DNA of 64,000 bases from Flagellimonas marinaquae. Its GTDB lineage: Bacteria > Bacteroidota > Bacteroidia > Flavobacteriales > Flavobacteriaceae. Positions 48,027-56,203 of the stretch are shown one piece after another. Every line of letters begins with the position of its first letter. The stretch's first letter is position 1. A program made the translations under genes and the position numbers. The stretch spans positions 1 through 64,000 of the forward strand of contig NZ_RZMZ01000005.1 of assembly GCF_003992675.1 (NCBI RefSeq), read 5' to 3'. The notes under the pieces are model-generated. The model saw nothing but the letters and a program-made list of their open reading frames with translations, did no database searches and had not been told where the DNA came from.

Positions 48027-48503
48027 TTAATTCTTTTCGAAAACCAATTTATCGGTTCCACCGTTTCCTCCACTTTCATCAATCAATTCGATTCTGACAG
48101 CGGAGTATTTTACAATATCCCAATCGTCCGTCAAATCGGCAAAATCGGCTGGGGCACTAAAAGCAATATTGAAATCCACATCACTATCATCTGGACTGTC
48201 ATCATCCCCATCATCGTCGGAGTCCGAAATGGACCACGTACCATTGATATCAGTTGTACCATTAGTGGCCACTAGGGTGCCATCGGTATTAAAGGTAAAA
48301 GCATAGCCATTAAAATGGTCCGTCTCATCCTTATCATCGAAATAATAGGTAATGGTCCATGACCCACTTGCGGCTATTCCTGTAAGTTCAGTGACCTGGG
48401 CTGCCGATATGTTATCAAGGACATCATCATCGTTGTTGTTTTCACAGCTCACAAAAATCATGAACAATAGAACCGTTGTCAGTTTTAAAATTGAGGTTTT
48501 CAT
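48027..48503 (-). CDS. Small lipocalin-like acidic lipoprotein
   Basis: The 158-residue lipoprotein (lipobox FVSC, Cys20, followed by ENNNDDD) is built of one lipocalin-like module with the pattern SGSWTITYYFDDKDET, YAFTFNTDGTLVATNG, NGTWSISDSDDDGD, LTDDWDIVKYSAVRIELIDES. The closest match in the window is the third module of the larger lipoprotein just upstream (LTDDWKVVSITSTRIELTDES and ending LVFEK), so the two are paralogous. A short Asp-rich loop is inserted before the strand FNIAFSAP. It lies 51 bp after the larger gene and is probably cotranscribed. Function is unknown. Confidence 0.82.
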   Translation of the reverse strand: MKTSILKLTTVLLFMIFVSCENNNDDDVLDNISAAQVTELTGIAASGSWTITYYFDDKDETDHFNGYAFTFNTDGTLVATNGTTDINGTWSISDSDDDGDDDSPDDSDVDFNIAFSAPADFADLTDDWDIVKYSAVRIELIDESGGNGGTDKLVFEKN

Positions 48504-48554
48504 ATATAGTTATTGAAATTGTAAAAAATTTAGTGTTCTCGTTTGGTATCGGGT

Positions 48555-50342
48555 TTATGGTTTTTCGAATACCAGGGTATCATTAGTTCCATCATCGCTT
48601 TCATCCGTTAGCTCGATTCGGGTGGAAGTTATGGAAACTACTTTCCAGTCATCTGTCAATTCGGACAGGACATCCATAGTATCAAAGTTGATAAAGAACT
48701 TTAGTCCTTCTTCGGAATCCCGCAGCACTCTCCAAAGACCTGTGGCCTGAGGATCTGCATTGATGGAGACCTCAACTTGGTGCATTTCGCCAAAATTAAA
48801 GTCCATTCCAGCGAAAGAAGCCGTCATATCCGTGCTTCCTTCCTTGTAAAGGGCCACATTCCATGGTCCGTCCAAAGCGATTCCTCTTATTTCTACCACA
48901 TCACCATCATCAGTGCTGTCATCACACTCTTTCAGCAGCACCATTTCGTGGTCGGTATCGTCGATTTCAAACTCCAATCGTGACTGAAGCATTTTGCGAA
49001 TGGGCCATTCAAAGCTAACTCCGGGTTCGTCACCAATGGTTATCATTAAGGAAAGTTGCAACTGACTGTTCAAACCGGTTTCCCATGTACCTTGTTTGGT
49101 ATTTACGCCATTGCTCAAGGTAACAGTACCGCCAGCGGCAAATTCAAATTCGTAGCCCAAGAGTCTTTCTATTTCCTCGCCTTGGTTTTCCACTTCCTTA
49201 ATAATCCACTTACATTCGTTGAGCAGAGCTGTAAAAGTCTCACTGTCTATTGGATTGGAATCTTCCAAATCACACCTCTCTTTCAATATGATTTTGTTTC
49301 CATCGTCCTTGTAAAGTTTGATTTTATCATCATCCAATTCATACACGATGGCATCGATAGTAAAATCTGGGAAATCTTCAAAGTCAAGGCTCAGCATCAC
49401 ACCATTTTCGGTAGTACTGGTGCTCCATGTACCCATGATCTCATCGGTGGTAAAGGTGGTAAAGTAAACTGTACCATCTGCAGAGAAAGTCAACAGACGC
49501 TCAACATACTGTTCTGTATTGTCCACACTGTTTCGGATGACCTGCCTTACCTGCAATGGGCATTCCAGTAGAAGTTCGTCCAACTCAGATTTAGTAAAGT
49601 CGTCGTCGTTATAATCATTGTCGTCGTCGTTATAAGCATCGTCATCATCTTCGTCGCACTGGTTCTTGGCCATTTCAAGGGCTGCGGCCAAGGCCGCATT
49701 GTTTTCGATCACCACTTGGGTGCCGTCAAACTTAATGAGGGTAATTGGAAATTCGATACTGATCAAGTCATCATCATCCAGTTCGTCAAAGAATCGCTTC
49801 ATGTCGCGATCGCTCTCGATGTTCACTTGACCTGACTGTTGATTGTCCACACCAAAGGTGAAGAGTGTAATGGGGTATACAAAATCAATACATTCGATAT
49901 CATCATCGTCACCTCCTTCAAGACACTCACGGGCATACTGCTCCAGTTGATCTTGATTTTCTATAGTGATTTCACTAAAATCGGAAAGGGTGATAGTAAT
50001 AGGAAAGAAGATATCAAGAATATCATCGTCGTCGTCCAATTCATCAAAGATTTCTTCGATCAAATCCAAATCTTCCCTGGAATCGATGGTTATTTCCACT
50101 CCGTTCACATTTACGGTGTATGGAAATTGTACAGCGAAGCAACTGGCACCATCCACAATATTGTCATAAGAACCATCATTGGAAGAGGTCTTCTGAATCA
50201 AATCGGCGGTAGTGGAGCTGGCGGAAATAGTCTCGCTTTGTGTCCCTCCGCCTACTTCTTCATATTCTTCTTGGCAGGCCATAAAACCAAGAACAAGGAT
50301 TGCAAGTAATGTACGCAACAAGTTGTTTGTCAACTTTTTCAT
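48555..50342 (-). CDS. Acidic repeat lipoprotein: four Asp-ending repeats plus three lipocalin-like modules
   Basis: I do not recognise this 595-residue protein as a named family. A lipoprotein signal (FMAC, Cys23) is followed by four repeats of about 38 residues (starting near 73, 113, 156 and 198). Each opens with F/Y-P-(I/Y)-T-(I/V/L), has an ...V.IES... strand and then a helix, and ends in a DDDD/DDDDD run. An Asp/Asn/Tyr linker follows (about 229-249). Then come three lipocalin-like modules at about 252-357, 366-473 and 484-595, each with GTW or LW and a final LKE/FEK strand. It is divergently placed to the ECF sigma/FecR/receptor genes and so is a likely target or partner. Calcium or metal binding by the Asp runs is inference. 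Confidence 0.85.
   Translation of the reverse strand: MKKLTNNLLRTLLAILVLGFMACQEEYEEVGGGTQSETISASSTTADLIQKTSSNDGSYDNIVDGASCFAVQFPYTVNVNGVEITIDSREDLDLIEEIFDELDDDDDILDIFFPITITLSDFSEITIENQDQLEQYARECLEGGDDDDIECIDFVYPITLFTFGVDNQQSGQVNIESDRDMKRFFDELDDDDLISIEFPITLIKFDGTQVVIENNAALAAALEMAKNQCDEDDDDAYNDDDNDYNDDDFTKSELDELLLECPLQVRQVIRNSVDNTEQYVERLLTFSADGTVYFTTFTTDEIMGTWSTSTTENGVMLSLDFEDFPDFTIDAIVYELDDDKIKLYKDDGNKIILKERCDLEDSNPIDSETFTALLNECKWIIKEVENQGEEIERLLGYEFEFAAGGTVTLSNGVNTKQGTWETGLNSQLQLSLMITIGDEPGVSFEWPIRKMLQSRLEFEIDDTDHEMVLLKECDDSTDDGDVVEIRGIALDGPWNVALYKEGSTDMTASFAGMDFNFGEMHQVEVSINADPQATGLWRVLRDSEEGLKFFINFDTMDVLSELTDDWKVVSITSTRIELTDESDDGTNDTLVFEKP
49599..49640 (-). repeat. 21-bp tandem repeat coding the Asp/Asn/Tyr linker
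   Basis: GTCGTCGTCGTTATAATCATT at 49599-49619 is followed by the same unit with two changes at 49620-49640. On the minus strand each unit codes seven residues around NDYNDDD/AYNDDDN. In-frame 21-bp units can vary in number without frameshift. Confidence 0.7.
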
Positions 50343-50420
50343 AACGAATGAATTTTGGGGTTATAATTCAACCTTAAAACAACCATCAAAAAGAAAACCC
50401 TACTTTTTCCTTAAATTTTT

Positions 50421-50432
50421 CAAATATATTTG
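50421..50432. promoter_or_regulatory. Palindrome carrying back-to-back -7 elements
   Basis: CAAATATATTTG is a 12-bp perfect palindrome, so TATATTTG (the -7 consensus TAnnTTTG) reads on both strands. Plus-strand use would start RNA about 16 bases before the sigma-factor ATG (50455); minus-strand use would give a leader of about 72 bases for the acidic lipoprotein (50342). No good -33 element was found on either side, which would fit dependence on the sigma factor encoded here (inference). Confidence 0.4.
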
Positions 50433-50454
50433 ACGTACAAACAATTTTCCCGCT

Positions 50455-50955
50455 ATGAGCAATGTCTGCGAGGACCATATTTTCAGTGAAGTGTTTAAGG
50501 CCCATTCCAAAACGGTCTTTAATTATATATTCTATAAGTTTGGAAACGAAGAGAAGGCCCATGACGCCGTACAAGAGGCCTTTGTGAAGTTATGGGAGAA
50601 TTGTGCCAAGGTAAGTCCTGAAAAAGCCAAATCCTTTGTTTACACTGTGGCCAACAATCTGTACCTAAACGTAATCAAATCGGAAAAAGTACGGCTCAAA
50701 CACGCGGACAGTCTTGTTAGGGATCGAACCAACGAATCACCCGAATTTTTAATGGAGGAAAAGGAATACCAGAAAAAATTGGACGATGCCCTCAACGCTT
50801 TACCCGAAAATCAGCGCACCACCTTTTTGCTCAACCGGGTAGACGGAAAAAAATATGCGGAAATCGCTGAAATGGAAGGAGTAAGCGTAAAAGCTATTGA
50901 AAAAAGGATGCATTTGGCCCTTAAAAGTTTGCGGGAACATATAGATGGAATCTAG
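50455..50955 (+). CDS. ECF-type RNA polymerase sigma factor
   Basis: The 166-residue protein has sigma region 2 (VFNYIFYKFGNEEKAHDAVQEAFVKLWEN; FVYTVANNLYLNVIK) and region 4 (ALPENQRTTFLLNRVDGKKYAEIAEMEGVSVKAIEKRMHLALKSLREH), with neither region 1.1 nor 3, so it is an ECF sigma factor. It is followed by a FecR-type anti-sigma factor and a TonB-dependent transducer, the FecIR/FecA signalling arrangement. It is divergent from the acidic lipoprotein genes. A signal at the outer membrane should free it to transcribe its target promoters. Confidence 0.93.
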   Translation: MSNVCEDHIFSEVFKAHSKTVFNYIFYKFGNEEKAHDAVQEAFVKLWENCAKVSPEKAKSFVYTVANNLYLNVIKSEKVRLKHADSLVRDRTNESPEFLMEEKEYQKKLDDALNALPENQRTTFLLNRVDGKKYAEIAEMEGVSVKAIEKRMHLALKSLREHIDGI

Positions 50956-51031
50956 CAGGTGATTATTTTTAAACTGGTAAGGTAGGGTATTTTAATAGGT
51001 AGTTGTTATCATAACGTAAAGCATAAGACCC

Positions 51032-51943
51032 ATGCAAGAAAATTATTTAGCAAAATGGTTGAGCGGAGAGCTCTCAGAGCAGGAGCTTCGGGAATTTGAA
51101 ACTTCCGAAGGATATGCTTCCTTTCAAAAACTGAAGGAAGCTTCCAGCGGTTTGCAGGCTCCCGATTTTGATGCGGACCAAGCCTTGCTCCGTTTCAAGG
51201 AAGAGCACATGGCCAAGGCACCTAAGGTCATTTCGTTGAATCCCTTCAAGAAATTCATGAGGGTGGCTGCCGTTATCGCTGTACTGCTTGCCGGTTCCTA
51301 CTTTTATATCAACTCCTTGAACGAAAAGGTTACCACTGGGTTTGCCGAACGTTCCGAAGTTATCCTTCCCGATAATTCCGAATTATTTTTAAATGCGGAT
51401 TCCCGTATTTCATACAGCAAAAAGAATTGGGACAACCAACGAAACATCGAATTGGACGGAGAGGCCTTTTTTAAGGTGGCCAAAGGAAAAAAATTCACGG
51501 TTTCCACAGAACAAGGCACCGTAATCGTATTGGGAACCCAATTCAACGTAGAAAATAGGGAAGGAATCTTTGAGGTGACCTGTTATGAAGGCTTGGTAAG
51601 CGTTACCCACAAGGGCAAAGAAATAAAGTTGCCTGCTGGTAACTCCTATGTGGTCATCAATGGAAAACAAACTACCGGAACTCCCAAAGGAACCCAACCC
51701 TCTTGGATGAACAACGAAAGTACCTTTGAAAGTATTCCTTTAAAATTTGTCTTTGCTGAATTGGAAAGACAGTTCAATGTAAAAGTTACCACGGAAAACA
51801 TCAATACCGATTTACTATTTACCGGATCTTTCAACAACACCGACCTAAATATGGCGTTAAAAAGTATAAGTACCCCCTCCCAAACTCGTTATAAGGTAGA
51901 AGGAGACAATGTACTTTTTTATGCTGGGAACACACCTCAATAA
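51032..51943 (+). CDS. FecR-family anti-sigma factor
   Basis: The 303-residue protein has a short cytoplasmic N-terminus (LAKWLSGELSEQELREFE), one transmembrane helix near residues 73-92 (MRVAAVIAVLLAGSYFYI) and a FecR periplasmic domain (FAERSEVILPDNSELFLNADSRISY; ELDGEAFFKVAKGKKFTV). The C-terminal DUF4974/STN-like part reads LKFVFAELERQFNVKVTTENI. It holds the ECF sigma factor at the membrane and passes the receptor signal inward. It is 76 bp after the sigma gene and overlaps the receptor gene by 35 bp. Confidence 0.93.
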   Translation: MQENYLAKWLSGELSEQELREFETSEGYASFQKLKEASSGLQAPDFDADQALLRFKEEHMAKAPKVISLNPFKKFMRVAAVIAVLLAGSYFYINSLNEKVTTGFAERSEVILPDNSELFLNADSRISYSKKNWDNQRNIELDGEAFFKVAKGKKFTVSTEQGTVIVLGTQFNVENREGIFEVTCYEGLVSVTHKGKEIKLPAGNSYVVINGKQTTGTPKGTQPSWMNNESTFESIPLKFVFAELERQFNVKVTTENINTDLLFTGSFNNTDLNMALKSISTPSQTRYKVEGDNVLFYAGNTPQ

Positions 51944-54491
51944 AAATATAGGCCGCGTATTGGTTTTCCTGTTTTTTATGGGCAGCTTTTGCATGCAGTC
52001 CCAAGAAAAACAAGAGTCGTCCGTTTCCCTTATTTCGTACATCAAAACCTTGGAGGATCGTTTTAATATTAAATTCTCCTACTTGAACGAAGATCTGGAA
52101 GGCTACGCCATCCAGATTCCCGAAAACCTCAACTCCCTAAGCGATATTCTCCAATATATCCAGGATAAATTTCGGATTGTCCCCGAAAAATTGAATGATC
52201 GTTACTACGCTCTTTCCAAGAATAACCGTGTCAATCTTTGTGGTGTGGTACTGGATAATTTTGCGGAAAATACCGTCATAGGTGCCACGGTGGAGGTGAT
52301 GGGCTTCAATATCGCCATTATTACCGATTCCGATGGCTCATTCCGTTTGGAAAACGTATCCCGCGATGCTTCCCTAAGAATTCGATACTTGGGCTACGAT
52401 ACCAAATATATCAGTGTTGAAGCACTCATCCACCAAGGCGGATGTCCCAAAATCCTGTTGGCACCACGTTACGAAGAGTTGGACGAGGTATTTGTGTACA
52501 AGTATCTTACCTCTGGAATCATAAAGGAGAGTGATGCGAGTATCTCACTGAACACCGCTGAGTTTGGTATCCTACCAGGCTTGATCGAGCCTGATATCCT
52601 TCAAACTGTTCAAGCATTGCCTGGTATCAAAAGTATTGACGAGACGGTCTCCGACATCAATGTCCGCGGGGGGACCAATGACCAGAACCTCGTACTGTGG
52701 AACGGTATCAAAATGTACCAATCCGGTCATTTTTTTGGGTTGATTTCCGCCTTCAATCCATATCAAACGGATAAAGTGACCGTCTACAAAAACGGAACCC
52801 CTGCCATTTTTGGGGATGGGGTAAGCAGTGTTATCCAAATGGAAACCGGCAATACCGTGCCCAAAACCTTTAAAGGTGGCGGTGGTTTCAACTTGATTAG
52901 CGGTGATGTATATGCCGAAATCCCAGTAACCCAAAAGTTGGGGGTACAGTTCGCCGCAAGACGCTCGGCTACCGATTTTTTGAGTACTCCCACTTACAAG
53001 CAGTTTATCAATAGGGCCTTTCAGGATAGTGAAATCACCTTGCAGAACAAAAACACCGTAGAGGATGAGTTTCTACGTGACGAAGATTTTTTCTTTTATG
53101 ATTTTTCAGGGAAGATTATTTACGACCTGAATCCCGATCATAAGATAAGCCTCAGTGCCATCCACATCAAAAACAACCTAAAATTTGAGGAGACCAATGT
53201 GTCCCTCAACGAAACGAACATCAGTCTGTTGAAGCAGGATAACATTTCGGTGGGTGGGCAATTGACAAGTAGTTGGACCGAAAGATTTTCTTCTCACCTC
53301 AATATCTATTATTCCAAATATAATTTGGATGCGGAGAACATTTTTGCCAATCAAGTTCAGCTGTTGTTCCAGAACAATGAGGTTACGGAAAACGCGCTAA
53401 AATTGGACACCAGATATCTTATCACTGATGGATGGAGCTGGACCAATGGCTACCAGTATATCGAAACGGGAATTACCAATGCTACGGTAATCAACCAACC
53501 TAATTTTAACAGCGAGATCAAAGGAGTTATACGAACGCACGCCCCTTATTCGGAGCTCAACTATAGTTCGCCGGGCAACAAGTTCATGGGCGGACTCGGC
53601 GCTAGGGTCAATTTTATCGAGAACCTGAATACCTTTCAAAAAGTAATTGTGGAACCCAGACTCAACCTCAATTTTAAACTGGCCAACTATCTTAGGGCCG
53701 AGGTTTTGGGTGAATTCAAAAGCCAAACCACCAACCAGATCATTGATTTGGAGCAAAACTTTTTGGGAATTGAAAAACGCCGATGGATACTTTCCAACGA
53801 CAGCTCTTTGCCCGTTACCACCAGTAAGCAAGGCTCTATTGGCTTCAATTACGAAAAAAACAACCTTTATATCGGTGTTGAAGGGTTTTACAAGCATGTG
53901 GACGGTATCAGCACGAGCACCCAAGGTTTCCAAAATCCAAATCAATTTGCGGGAGAGATTGGCAGTTATGATGTGAAAGGAGTTGAATTGCTCATCAACA
54001 AAAAAGGGGACAATTACAGTACATGGTTCACCTATGCCTACAATAAAAACGATTACACTTTCGATTCCATAACACCTCCAACTTTCCCCAACAACTTGGA
54101 CATTCGGCACACTATAACCTTTGCCAGCACTTATACCTACAAGGATTTGAAGTTAAGTATTGGACTCAATTACAGGACCGGCAAACCTTTTACGGAACCT
54201 GTCGAGGGAGATGAAGGCTTGGATGATGACTTTGTACCGCCCCGCATCAATTTCCAATCCCCGAACAATAGCCGTTTGCCCGACTATTTTAGGGCGGACG
54301 CATCAGCCATTTATCATTTTCAGCTTGCTAGGAACATCAAAGCCAATGCGGGCTTATCCATCTTAAATTTTACGGACCGAAGAAATACCCTAAACAAGTA
54401 TTATCGAGTAAATGAAGAAGATGAAATTGAAACCATAGAAAACTTCTCATTGGGCATTACCCCCAACATCAGTTTCAGGGTGAGTTTTTAA
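51909..54491 (+). CDS. TonB-dependent outer-membrane receptor/transducer with STN domain
   Basis: The 860-residue protein starts at 51909 (an ATG four codons later is also possible). After a signal peptide comes an STN signalling domain (about 40-103; LISYIKTLEDRFNIKFSYL), a carboxypeptidase-regulatory-like domain (about 108-190), a plug (about 210-320; DILQTVQALPGIKS, VRGGTNDQNLVLWNGI) and a beta-barrel ending in aromatic SFRVSF. The STN part contacts FecR and transmits ligand binding to the sigma factor. No SusD-type partner follows, unlike glycan receptors. The ligand is unknown. Its last 45 bp overlap the convergent blh gene. Confidence 0.92.
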   Translation: MYFFMLGTHLNKNIGRVLVFLFFMGSFCMQSQEKQESSVSLISYIKTLEDRFNIKFSYLNEDLEGYAIQIPENLNSLSDILQYIQDKFRIVPEKLNDRYYALSKNNRVNLCGVVLDNFAENTVIGATVEVMGFNIAIITDSDGSFRLENVSRDASLRIRYLGYDTKYISVEALIHQGGCPKILLAPRYEELDEVFVYKYLTSGIIKESDASISLNTAEFGILPGLIEPDILQTVQALPGIKSIDETVSDINVRGGTNDQNLVLWNGIKMYQSGHFFGLISAFNPYQTDKVTVYKNGTPAIFGDGVSSVIQMETGNTVPKTFKGGGGFNLISGDVYAEIPVTQKLGVQFAARRSATDFLSTPTYKQFINRAFQDSEITLQNKNTVEDEFLRDEDFFFYDFSGKIIYDLNPDHKISLSAIHIKNNLKFEETNVSLNETNISLLKQDNISVGGQLTSSWTERFSSHLNIYYSKYNLDAENIFANQVQLLFQNNEVTENALKLDTRYLITDGWSWTNGYQYIETGITNATVINQPNFNSEIKGVIRTHAPYSELNYSSPGNKFMGGLGARVNFIENLNTFQKVIVEPRLNLNFKLANYLRAEVLGEFKSQTTNQIIDLEQNFLGIEKRRWILSNDSSLPVTTSKQGSIGFNYEKNNLYIGVEGFYKHVDGISTSTQGFQNPNQFAGEIGSYDVKGVELLINKKGDNYSTWFTYAYNKNDYTFDSITPPTFPNNLDIRHTITFASTYTYKDLKLSIGLNYRTGKPFTEPVEGDEGLDDDFVPPRINFQSPNNSRLPDYFRADASAIYHFQLARNIKANAGLSILNFTDRRNTLNKYYRVNEEDEIETIENFSLGITPNISFRVSF

Positions 54492-55376
54492 AAATTCTTC
54501 GATTTTTGTCATCACCAACACATGGGGAACCGTAATCGAGGCCAAGAAACAAATCAAACCGGGAACCATAAACTCTTCAGCATTACGTAACAAGAGATAC
54601 AACACGAAAGTTCCCACTAAGGAAGCCAACCAGTAAACAAAACTACTTTTAAAATAGCGGTAGAACGACTTCCAACTTACGTCTCCATAAAGAAACTTCA
54701 TCTGATCTAACAAAGAAGGAATACTATGCCAAATCACAAAATAGATGCAAAAGGCCAGCAACAACGAAGCCGTATTGAAGACAACATAAAAAACACCCAA
54801 TAGGAACAACTCCAATAAGATGGTATAGCTGTTAAGTCCGGCAAAGGCGAAATAAAGGAAATACAAGCTGGTCACTATGCCCACTCCAAGAAATAATTGA
54901 CCAATTACCCAAGTTGGAACATCCTGTCCGGTGATATCCGATACTATCTGGACCACTTGTACGCGGTGCGCATAGAACAGCATAAATAAAATCAAACCAC
55001 CGTAAAGTATGTAGAACAAGGGCTTACCTTTTAGGTTTCCCGTTAAGCTAGCGTTCCAATGCTGTTCCCCAAAATGATAACTGCTAAATAGGATAAATAG
55101 CACCAACGCAATCGTTGGGAAAAAATAAAAAACAATGCATATGGATGCTATCATTACTATGTAAAGCAAAGTCATACCCGTTTTTGCGATTTTGGCACCC
55201 CTCTTTTGAAAATAAGTGGTAAGTACCCCAATGTCATTTGCGCCATGCAATATCCCAAATGTGCCAATAAGCAAAAAGGACAAGAGCAGCTCCAATTCCA
55301 AGGGCAAATACACCGATAGCCATAACCCGAAAAAGGTGGCCACCATCAAAAAACTTGTTATTCTGATACTATCCAA
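54447..55376 (-). CDS. blh: Beta-carotene 15,15'-dioxygenase, Brp/Blh family
   Basis: The 309-residue polytopic membrane enzyme cleaves beta-carotene into two retinal molecules. It carries the conserved histidine motifs: LHGANDIGVL, SYHFGEQHW, YFVIWHSIPSLL and VPHVLVMTKI, which bind the non-heme iron. The start on TTG at 55376 is the only one before an in-frame stop; an ATG at 55346 would remove ten residues. It is head to head with the rhodopsin gene across a 98-bp gap, so its retinal product is made next to its user. Its 3' end overlaps the transducer gene by 45 bp on the opposite strand. Confidence 0.93.
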   Translation of the reverse strand: MDSIRITSFLMVATFFGLWLSVYLPLELELLLSFLLIGTFGILHGANDIGVLTTYFQKRGAKIAKTGMTLLYIVMIASICIVFYFFPTIALVLFILFSSYHFGEQHWNASLTGNLKGKPLFYILYGGLILFMLFYAHRVQVVQIVSDITGQDVPTWVIGQLFLGVGIVTSLYFLYFAFAGLNSYTILLELFLLGVFYVVFNTASLLLAFCIYFVIWHSIPSLLDQMKFLYGDVSWKSFYRYFKSSFVYWLASLVGTFVLYLLLRNAEEFMVPGLICFLASITVPHVLVMTKIEEFLKTHPETDVGGNAQ

Positions 55377-55474
55377 TACGATTTGTTTAAATATTTATAA
55401 AAAAAGTTATACAAAAATATGAATATATTGTTAAATTTTTTATACTTTTAGTTAAACAAAAATATTTACATATT
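55377..55474. promoter_or_regulatory. AT-rich divergent control region for blh and proteorhodopsin
   Basis: The 98-bp gap must contain both promoters. It is very AT-rich. TACTTTTA at 55443-55450 resembles TAnnTTTG for the rhodopsin direction, but I could not place a matching -33 element at a normal distance. No operator palindrome is clear. Confidence 0.4.
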
Positions 55475-56203
55475 ATGGAAAGTTTAATTACATCGTTACC
55501 CATGGTGGCAAAAATAGCTACCAATGATTACGTTGGCTTCACCTTCTTTGTTGGGTGTATGGCCATGATGGCCGCTTCGGCCTTCTTCTTTTTGTCAATG
55601 AACAATTTTGATCGTAAATGGAGAACTTCCATTTTGGTATCAGGATTGATTACGTTCATTGCTGCAGTGCACTATTGGTATATGCGTGATTATTGGGCAG
55701 CCAATGGTGAATCGCCAACTTTTTTCCGTTATGTGGACTGGATTCTAACAGTTCCCCTAATGTGCGTTGAGTTCTACTTGATTCTGAAAGTAGCTGGTGC
55801 CAAAAAAGCATTGATGTGGAAATTGATCGCACTATCCGTAATCATGCTGGTTACAGGTTACCTAGGAGAGACCGTTTACCGTGACCAAGCACAGATTTGG
55901 GGTCTTATTTCCGGAATTGCCTATTTCGTAATCGTTTACGAAATATGGTTGGGAGGTGCCAACAAACTGGCTAGAGAAGCCGGAGGCGCTGTACTTTCCG
56001 CCCACAAAACACTTTGCTGGTTCGTATTGGTAGGTTGGGCCATCTATCCTATTGGCTACATGGCAGGTACACCTGGATGGTACGATGGAATCTTCAATGG
56101 GCTATCCATGGACGTTATTTACAACATCGGTGATGCCATTAACAAAATCGGATTTGGCCTTGTAGTTTACAATTTAGCGGTAATCGCTAACGAAAAGGCT
56201 TAG
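55475..56203 (+). CDS. Proteorhodopsin, green-tuned light-driven proton pump (DTE type)
   Basis: The 242-residue seven-helix protein covalently binds retinal at Lys224 (NKIGFG). Helix C reads RYVDWILTVPLMCVEFYL: Asp88 (counterion, proton acceptor), Thr92 and Glu99 (donor) match the DTE proton-pump pattern, and not the NQ sodium or NTQ chloride types. The tuning position is Met96 rather than Gln, so green absorption is expected. His66 in AAVHYWYM corresponds to the conserved counterion-partner His. The gene is divergent from blh and is followed by a bidirectional terminator. It would add light energy to the membrane potential. Confidence 0.96.
   Translation: MESLITSLPMVAKIATNDYVGFTFFVGCMAMMAASAFFFLSMNNFDRKWRTSILVSGLITFIAAVHYWYMRDYWAANGESPTFFRYVDWILTVPLMCVEFYLILKVAGAKKALMWKLIALSVIMLVTGYLGETVYRDQAQIWGLISGIAYFVIVYEIWLGGANKLAREAGGAVLSAHKTLCWFVLVGWAIYPIGYMAGTPGWYDGIFNGLSMDVIYNIGDAINKIGFGLVVYNLAVIANEKA

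Follow-up and report, generated by a model that had tools for sequence, protein, structure and literature searches.

A divergent acidic lipoprotein operon as the predicted output of a probable cell-surface-signalling system in Flavobacteriaceae

What links two acidic lipoproteins to the signalling genes that lie head to head with them? The question is raised by a locus at positions 48,027 to 54,491 of a 64,000-nucleotide stretch of Flagellimonas marinaquae DNA (assembly GCF_003992675.1, contig NZ_RZMZ01000005.1, positions 1 to 64,000), hereafter called the window. An earlier note, made from the letters alone, described here a self-contained signalling unit of an extracytoplasmic function (ECF) sigma factor, a FecR anti-sigma factor and a TonB-dependent receptor, and suggested that the two lipoproteins, named here LipA and LipB, may be partners or outputs of the receptor. 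Here, we compared the locus with its relatives, which we number with L (genomes with G, contigs with C). In our view the locus probably encodes a cell-surface-signalling (CSS) system of the FecI/FecR/FecA type, whose regulated output is the divergent surface lipoprotein operon together with the receptor. The features are listed below, with lengths in amino acids (aa) or nucleotides (nt).

48027..48503, minus strand: LipB, acidic lipoprotein of 158 aa with a single lipocalin-like module (from its open reading frame and sequence match to LipA)
48555..50342, minus strand: LipA, acidic lipoprotein of 595 aa, comprising Cys23, four beta-beta-beta-alpha units, an acidic linker and three lipocalin-like modules
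49656..50141, minus strand: LipA residues 68-229, the four beta-beta-beta-alpha units, conserved core of the family
49599..49655, minus strand: LipA residues 230-248, Asp-rich linker of low predicted confidence
49272..49592, minus strand: LipA residues 251-357, lipocalin-like module 1
48924..49244, minus strand: LipA residues 367-473, lipocalin-like module 2
48558..48905, minus strand: LipA residues 480-595, lipocalin-like module 3
50378..50403, minus strand: ECF-type box of lipA, GTAGGGT-N13-GTTGTT, 35 nt ahead of the lipA start
50425..50432, plus strand: TATATTTG, TAnnTTTG box of sigmaA type ahead of the sigma gene, after the consensus in PMC9723704
50455..50955, plus strand: ECF sigma factor, 166 aa (Pfam matches over cut-off)
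50982..51007, plus strand: ECF-type box of fecR and the receptor gene, GTAGGGT-N13-GTTGTT
51032..51943, plus strand: FecR anti-sigma factor, 303 aa (PF04773, PF16344)
51909..54491, plus strand: TonB-dependent receptor/transducer, 860 aa, start codon ambiguous (Pfam)
52026..52169, plus strand: receptor residues 40-87, STN-like signalling domain (sub-threshold FecR_C match, E 1e-3)

A check of the open reading frames (ORFs) returned all five genes with the coordinates and strands that the earlier note had given them. The lipoprotein genes are divergent from the set of sigma factor, FecR and receptor in the window, and the same divergent order is seen in the loci of relatives. The lipB gene begins 51 nt past lipA on the same strand, and because of this short distance the two genes are probably on one transcript.

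The sigma factor has Pfam matches over cut-off to Sigma70_r2 (E 3.8e-11) and Sigma70_r4_2 (E 5.6e-17), and its match to TIGR02985 is just under the cut-off, with 123.6 bits against 126.4. FecR matches PF04773 (FecR, E 3.8e-21) and PF16344 (FecR_C, E 3.2e-11), both over cut-off, which gives it the periplasmic FecR domain and the STN-like C-terminus of an anti-sigma factor. The receptor has over-cut-off Pfam matches to CarbopepD_reg_2 (E 1.3e-11) and Plug (E 7.9e-8), and one of its matches among PDB sequences is to a fragment of a SusC homologue (9hfj, E 5.8e-4). Its residues 40-87 have an STN-like FecR_C match of 21.1 bits (17.2 in a second scan), under the family cut-off of 24.4. For the self-contained unit claimed by the earlier note, the sigma and FecR parts are therefore borne out, and the STN domain of the receptor has a sub-threshold match.

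The neighbourhood, whose conservation the earlier note had left to be checked, is kept across the family. We used three sets of loci: 40 found via LipA, 80 named ones found via the receptor, and 18 found via a profile of the LipA N-terminus, so that 58 of the 138 loci were located through LipA itself; the own-genome loci L007-L009 are outside these counts. LipA is divergent from the sigma gene and adjoins it in 39/40, 73/80 and 17/18 loci, or 129/138 in total. Seven of the nine misses are contig ends (L130, L156, L165, L191, L195, L201, L205); in L168 a longer spurious ORF covers the sigma gene, and L303 has a partial LipA match and neither FecR nor receptor. FecR adjoins the receptor in 37/40, 80/80 and 17/18 loci, the misses being L303, two contig ends (L129, L130) and L131, where the fetched stretch stops. 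Additional ORFs lie between sigma and fecR in L101, L106, L113, L202 and L203.

LipA homologues were found in 60/60 genomes of the genus, and the receptor was matched in all 35 other same-genus genomes. LipA-related genes occur in 146/199 sampled Flavobacteriaceae genomes, some of which match the lipocalin-like part alone, and some genomes have several LipA loci (three were fetched from G183). Among named genomes, those of Muricauda, Flagellimonas and Allomuricauda are the closest relatives. A profile of the N-terminal 300 residues of LipA matched 26 Flavobacteriaceae in a 296-genome sample of the phylum, one of them (G525) partially; four Flavobacteriaceae are among the non-matches listed, which are ordered by kinship, with 243 further non-matching genomes outside that list. 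Seven genomes outside the family matched, and only G326 did so over the whole profile. A search of the open-access literature, judged by titles and starts of abstracts and excluding preprints and most subscription papers, found no paper describing this locus. Together with the conserved gene order, this agrees with the earlier description of a coherent, apparently undescribed unit.

The evidence that ties the lipoproteins to the signalling genes comes from promoter boxes. A box, GTAGGGT...GTTGTT, emerged in the direction of lipA from the aligned lipA-sigma gaps of the named loci, and the same box is also found between sigma and fecR. In the clade of the window it has the form GTAGGGT-N13-[AG]TTGTT. 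We searched 260 nt upstream of each gene with one pattern for all classes of the box. The box is ahead of lipA in 34/39, 71/73 and 15/17 loci of the three sets (120/129) and ahead of fecR in 35/37, 76/78 and 17/17 (128/132), while the sigma gene has it in 0/39, 0/73 and 0/17 (0/129). L303 is excluded from these counts, and that for fecR also omits L156 and L192, where FecR is cut or frame-broken and shorter than 200 aa. For comparison, the pattern was found at 11/917 other genes and in 6/917 upstream regions read backwards. In two diverse sets of loci, a single spacing is used at lipA in 49/56, against 0-7/56 at ten other spacings. The sigma gene itself has a TAnnTTTG box in 66/73 named loci and 16/39 family loci, both control-free counts; TAnnTTTG is the flavobacterial sigmaA-type promoter consensus (PMC9723704).

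The boxes on the two sides of the sigma gene also vary together. There are three classes at the -35 position, GTAGGG, GTAGGA and TCAGGA, and in the two diverse sets lipA and fecR share the class at 43/45 loci with a box at each gene. Between the two boxes of a locus the mismatch averages 1.02, against 3.34 (standard deviation 0.24) when pairs are permuted, with 0/10,000 permutations as low. Permutation within classes gave a mean of 1.46, and 0/5,000 were as low as observed. Furthermore, the change from GT to TC at -35 tracks a change from K150 to Y and from A147 to V in the sigma factor. V147 and Y150, in the helix of region 4.2, are present in 15/15 sigma factors of the TCAGGA class and 0/97 of the others, which have K150 in 97/97 and A147 in 95/97. 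We take position 150 to correspond to a DNA-contacting residue of E. coli sigmaE. Based on these comparisons, lipA, with lipB, is well supported in silico as an output of the system, and the cognate sigma factor would be the one that uses the boxes. Of the two roles offered by the earlier note, that of output is thus backed by the paired, co-varying boxes, and that of receptor partner stays a suggestion.

What kind of proteins are these outputs? Both lipoproteins have a lipobox and an acidic composition, with D+E of 23% and 22% and K+R of 6% and 4% in LipA and LipB, respectively. LipB is 36% identical to the final module of LipA (residues 475-594; E 2.2e-8). The shared lipocalin-like module proposed earlier is found in three copies in the predicted model of LipA and once, by sequence, in LipB, and the four Asp-ending repeats of LipA correspond to four predicted beta-beta-beta-alpha units near runs of Asp. 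The three C-terminal modules are predicted to adopt a lipocalin-like fold, and their number varies in the family. No curated Pfam family matched the window lipoproteins over cut-off: META reached 18.7 bits against 24, DUF4923 13.7 against 22.8 and Lipocalin_4 11.2 against 22.4. META was matched by 9/69 LipA relatives (best E 2.9e-4). A LipA profile had no match among PDB sequences at E<=1, which leaves room for a distant fold relation. A weak NCBIfam match of LipB to a BSAP-5 immunity family, of 15.6 bits against 150, was rejected.

The N-terminus of LipA suggests display at the cell surface. At least two acidic residues are found at positions +2 to +6 after the lipid-bearing Cys in 122/130 LipA proteins, mostly as CQ(E/D)E, and a pattern of Cys followed by an acidic run in 105/130. 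This is similar, not identical, to the surface-export signals for lipoproteins of Capnocytophaga and relatives (PMC5080379). Moreover, distances between LipA proteins correlate with those between receptors (0.73, 54 loci), and partial correlations of LipA distances given the neighbouring gene ffh (23 loci) are 0.72 for the receptor, 0.65 for FecR and 0.13 for the sigma factor. These values suggest a physical partnership of LipA and the receptor.

The proposed mechanism could be described as follows. The sigma gene would be read at a basal level from its housekeeping TAnnTTTG promoter, and FecR would retain the sigma factor at the inner membrane. On the cell surface, LipA would hold out its N-terminal four-unit array, the conserved core and the proposed docking part. 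An extracellular ligand, probably presented by LipA or bound together with it, would load the receptor, whose STN domain would then act on FecR at its STN-like end, so that the sigma factor is freed; contacts between FecR-type proteins and STN domains are reported in CSS work (PMC11637429). RNA polymerase with this sigma factor would read both boxes, giving LipA and LipB in one direction and FecR and the receptor in the other. The amounts of receptor and partner would rise, and surplus FecR would end the response once the ligand runs out. The in silico support covers gene order, domains, the paired boxes and the absence of the box at the sigma gene. Use of the boxes by the cognate sigma factor, surface display, docking, ligand and feedback are the parts that we infer.

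Several points weigh against this mechanism. It is a prediction from sequence, as are the function of LipA and its contact with the receptor. The STN match of the window receptor is under the cut-off. By the pattern, 9/129 lipA genes have no box, near-versions being seen by eye in two of them (L304, L305), and the enrichment is partly by construction, as the pattern was derived from the very loci in which it was counted; the controls were scanned with that pattern as well. Once the named set, which is rich in the genus, is left aside, TAnnTTTG is found at only 16/39 sigma genes. The link between sigma residues and boxes is only supportive, since the sigma classes are clades and the link is confounded by descent. 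The distance correlations draw on both orthologues and paralogues, FecR nearly equals the receptor in them, and binding is inseparable from linkage. Finally, the genome has similar boxes at other sites, so another sigma factor may read the same box; one of these boxes, with extra conserved bases, is kept across the genus ahead of a 27-aa ORF.

The genes beyond lipA and the receptor differ between loci. In L120, L123, L124, L128 and L307, lipA is followed by an OB-fold protein, a cupredoxin with a secretion tail, a DUF5777 barrel, a c-type cytochrome and YceI. L126 has the same set without a cytochrome match, and L130 a partial set at a contig end. In L293-L295 and L306, the OB-fold, DUF5777, cytochrome and YceI genes, without the cupredoxin, come after the receptor (partially so in L292), and L218 and L207 have parts of this set on the ffh side. 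The set thus travels with the signalling locus in varying position, after lipA or after the receptor. A metalloprotease-like gene follows lipA in L131-L133, L296, L297, L301 and L302, with a small barrel in 5/7. The cytochromes and metalloproteases were named from CxxCH and HExGH-type motifs, and those scanned have no Pfam match. Cupredoxin matches in L114, L134 and L305 were disregarded, as the secretion tail of the query may cause them. At the window locus, neither these accessory genes nor those of the paralogous system described next are present. A search for the DUF5777 set at other sites of this genome gave no match, as did control genomes, so absence is not shown.

The same genome has a paralogous sigma-FecR-receptor system (L007, G000:C13:24000-40000) of 31% identity, which is also found in G018 (L244). 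It is divergent from genes for a thioredoxin (Trx), ApbE and DUF3570, and in both genomes it has its own paired boxes, ATAGGGT-N13-[ACG]CTGTC. The receptor of this C13 paralogue has an STN-like FecR_C match over cut-off, unlike the window receptor. After the system, this genome has an integrase-like ORF, an MbnP gene and a gene of the CCP_MauG family (di-haem peroxidase). It appears to be the same circuit with another output.

These genes bear on a reading that is possible, if less favoured, in which LipA and LipB are output only: surface proteins with a task of their own (coat, adhesin, metal or lipid binding) that never touch the receptor. The promoter evidence shows co-regulation and not contact. 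The place of the divergent operon resembles a slot for varying outputs, because the further genes after lipA differ between loci, cupredoxin/DUF5777/cytochrome/YceI sets in some and metalloprotease-like genes in others, and the paralogue fills that slot with Trx-ApbE-DUF3570 under its own paired boxes. However, it is the accessory genes that change while lipA stays, divergent from sigma in 129/138 loci, and the correlation of lipA and receptor distances persists after correction for ffh. The accessory genes and those of the paralogue indicate a role in the redox or metal biology of the envelope; they do not indicate a ligand. In a bolder reading, LipA would be a co-receptor dedicated to presenting the signal, and its N-terminal repeats would have a fold not yet described. 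Together with the receptor it would sense, throughout the family, the redox or metal state outside the cell, and in a number of flavobacteria it would govern the genes for surface electron transfer at the same locus: those for cupredoxin, c-type cytochrome, YceI and the DUF5777 barrel, with flavinylation genes in the paralogue. We regard this reading as speculative and rather improbable.

Could the locus instead serve classical nutrient uptake, with the receptor as a transporter (of a metal chelate or similar), LipA as its lid or capture protein and signalling as a secondary role? Such pairs of lipoprotein and receptor exist, as in BtuB-BtuG (PMC10404256) and in iron piracy (PMC13142918), and when Foldseek was run with the whole LipA model, the top-ranked chains were those of TbpB. 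The TM-scores of these chains are about 0.1, however, and therefore give no evidence for a shared fold, and no recurring uptake gene was seen beside the locus among flanking genes that are annotated in part. We consider this reading unlikely.

Still less probable is that another ECF sigma factor or a shared regulator, and not the local sigma factor, reads the boxes. The genome has six exact boxes, two of them at the window locus. The box at C7:547020 precedes a lipoprotein of 183-192 aa, which was dropped as a regulon member: in 27 readable rows (own genome included; 3/30 rows were unreadable) the exact motif is present in 5 and a lax one in 11, and it is absent from L250-L259, the relatives closest by identity. 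At C13:91631 an exact box lies about 60 nt ahead of a secreted ORF of 134 aa. At C4:21761 no ORF of at least 60 aa starts within about 900 nt on the same strand, shorter ORFs being outside this search. A box with one mismatch at C7:544661 precedes an acidic PepSY-like lipoprotein; this protein is present in only this one of 40 genus genomes.

In that region (L245:4919-7687; G000:C7:537000-548282), a near-exact box and an acidic lipoprotein with PepSY_like repeats are followed by a thioredoxin-like ORF, ApbE and DUF4266. The set is close to the end of a contig and adjoins a transposase-like ORF; the thioredoxin-like and transposase-like names are our presumption. Another box type, GTAGGGT-N7-CGTT-N2-[AG]TTGTTA (C15:887630; L247:6631-6762), precedes the 27-aa ORF, which resembles a tiny membrane protein and has a similar ORF of 28-30 aa directly upstream; both are below the length limits of the ORF lists. 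The 27-aa ORF and its box were found in this genome and in 19/19 fetched genus loci of this box type (L309-L327), a 20th fetched site, L328, being of a different type. By hand count, the CGTT-type box occurs in about 49/60 genus genomes, and a control pattern had 3 matches across all 60.

What speaks for a foreign reader is this GTAGGGT-N7-CGTT-N2-[AG]TTGTTA box before a conserved 27-aa ORF, the ATAGGGT-N13-[AC]CTGTC boxes of the paralogous system, and the descent that confounds the link of sigma helix and box. Against it, the boxes of lipA and fecR match locus by locus, over the three classes and within a class, and in each of the three sets they lie on both sides of the sigma gene. Mere genomic linkage of functionally untied halves beside ffh/folD is highly improbable: ffh is close by in 71/80 named loci, but 36 of the 129 divergent loci, separate loci that contradict this idea, have no ffh/folD in the stretch read, so that linkage to ffh is not the cause of the conservation, one of these loci (L291) belongs to another family, and the boxes are paired and co-vary.

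The signalling system with a divergent lipoprotein output is composed of components of known kinds; no description was found of their combination, in which a family-wide, undescribed lipoprotein is apparently co-regulated with a signalling receptor. As the box predicts the promoters that the sigma factor reads, the regulon, and then the ligand, should be directly testable in laboratory flavobacteria, and the three box classes, matched within loci, are a natural series for ECF promoter specificity in Bacteroidota. The earlier note's remark that no SusD follows the receptor is correct: LipA and LipB have no SusD match in Pfam, and the next ORFs, at 54447-56203 of the window, encode a beta-carotene dioxygenase (PF15461) beside a rhodopsin (PF01036). 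By BLAST, neighbours of these two types recur in 22/80 and 21/80 named loci, respectively.

In SusC/SusD systems with an ECF sigma factor and FecR, the receptor has a CarbopepD_reg domain and a surface lipoprotein as partner. The window locus shares the receptor domain and the theme of a surface lipoprotein partner; it differs in having no SusD, and LipA has no sequence match to a solved structure. In BtuB-BtuG and TbpA-TbpB, too, a surface lipoprotein gene lies beside that of a TonB-dependent receptor, but no sequence relation to them was found, and a complex of LipA with the receptor is a prediction. Clusters of DUF3570, ApbE, thioredoxin and DUF4266 are described in PMC8238504; the set is absent at the window locus, while the paralogous system has Trx-ApbE-DUF3570 in the divergent slot. 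E. coli FecI-FecR-FecA has the same three components, sigma factor, anti-sigma factor and TonB-dependent transducer, with the sigma gene under a housekeeping promoter (PMC9249621). In Fec, however, a single sigma70 promoter serves both the sigma and the anti-sigma gene, and FecI drives transcription only from fecA on, whereas the window locus has a predicted sigma box between sigma and fecR, and a divergent one. In the Has system of Serratia marcescens, the sigma factor is not autoregulated, the anti-sigma factor is under its control and a binding protein is a co-player, according to the same source. The likeness to HasI/HasS/HasR and HasA, here in silico only, would lie in a sigma gene without a promoter of its own sigma factor, an anti-sigma factor and receptor under that factor, and an extra extracellular protein in the response. 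The extra protein differs: here it is an acidic lipoprotein with lipocalin-like modules, encoded in a divergent operon and without a detected relation to hemophores, and the window receptor has a carboxypeptidase-D-type domain. The Has-type likeness would thus be one of wiring only, and the pattern of the boxes, at 0/129 sigma genes and 128/132 fecR genes, fits it.

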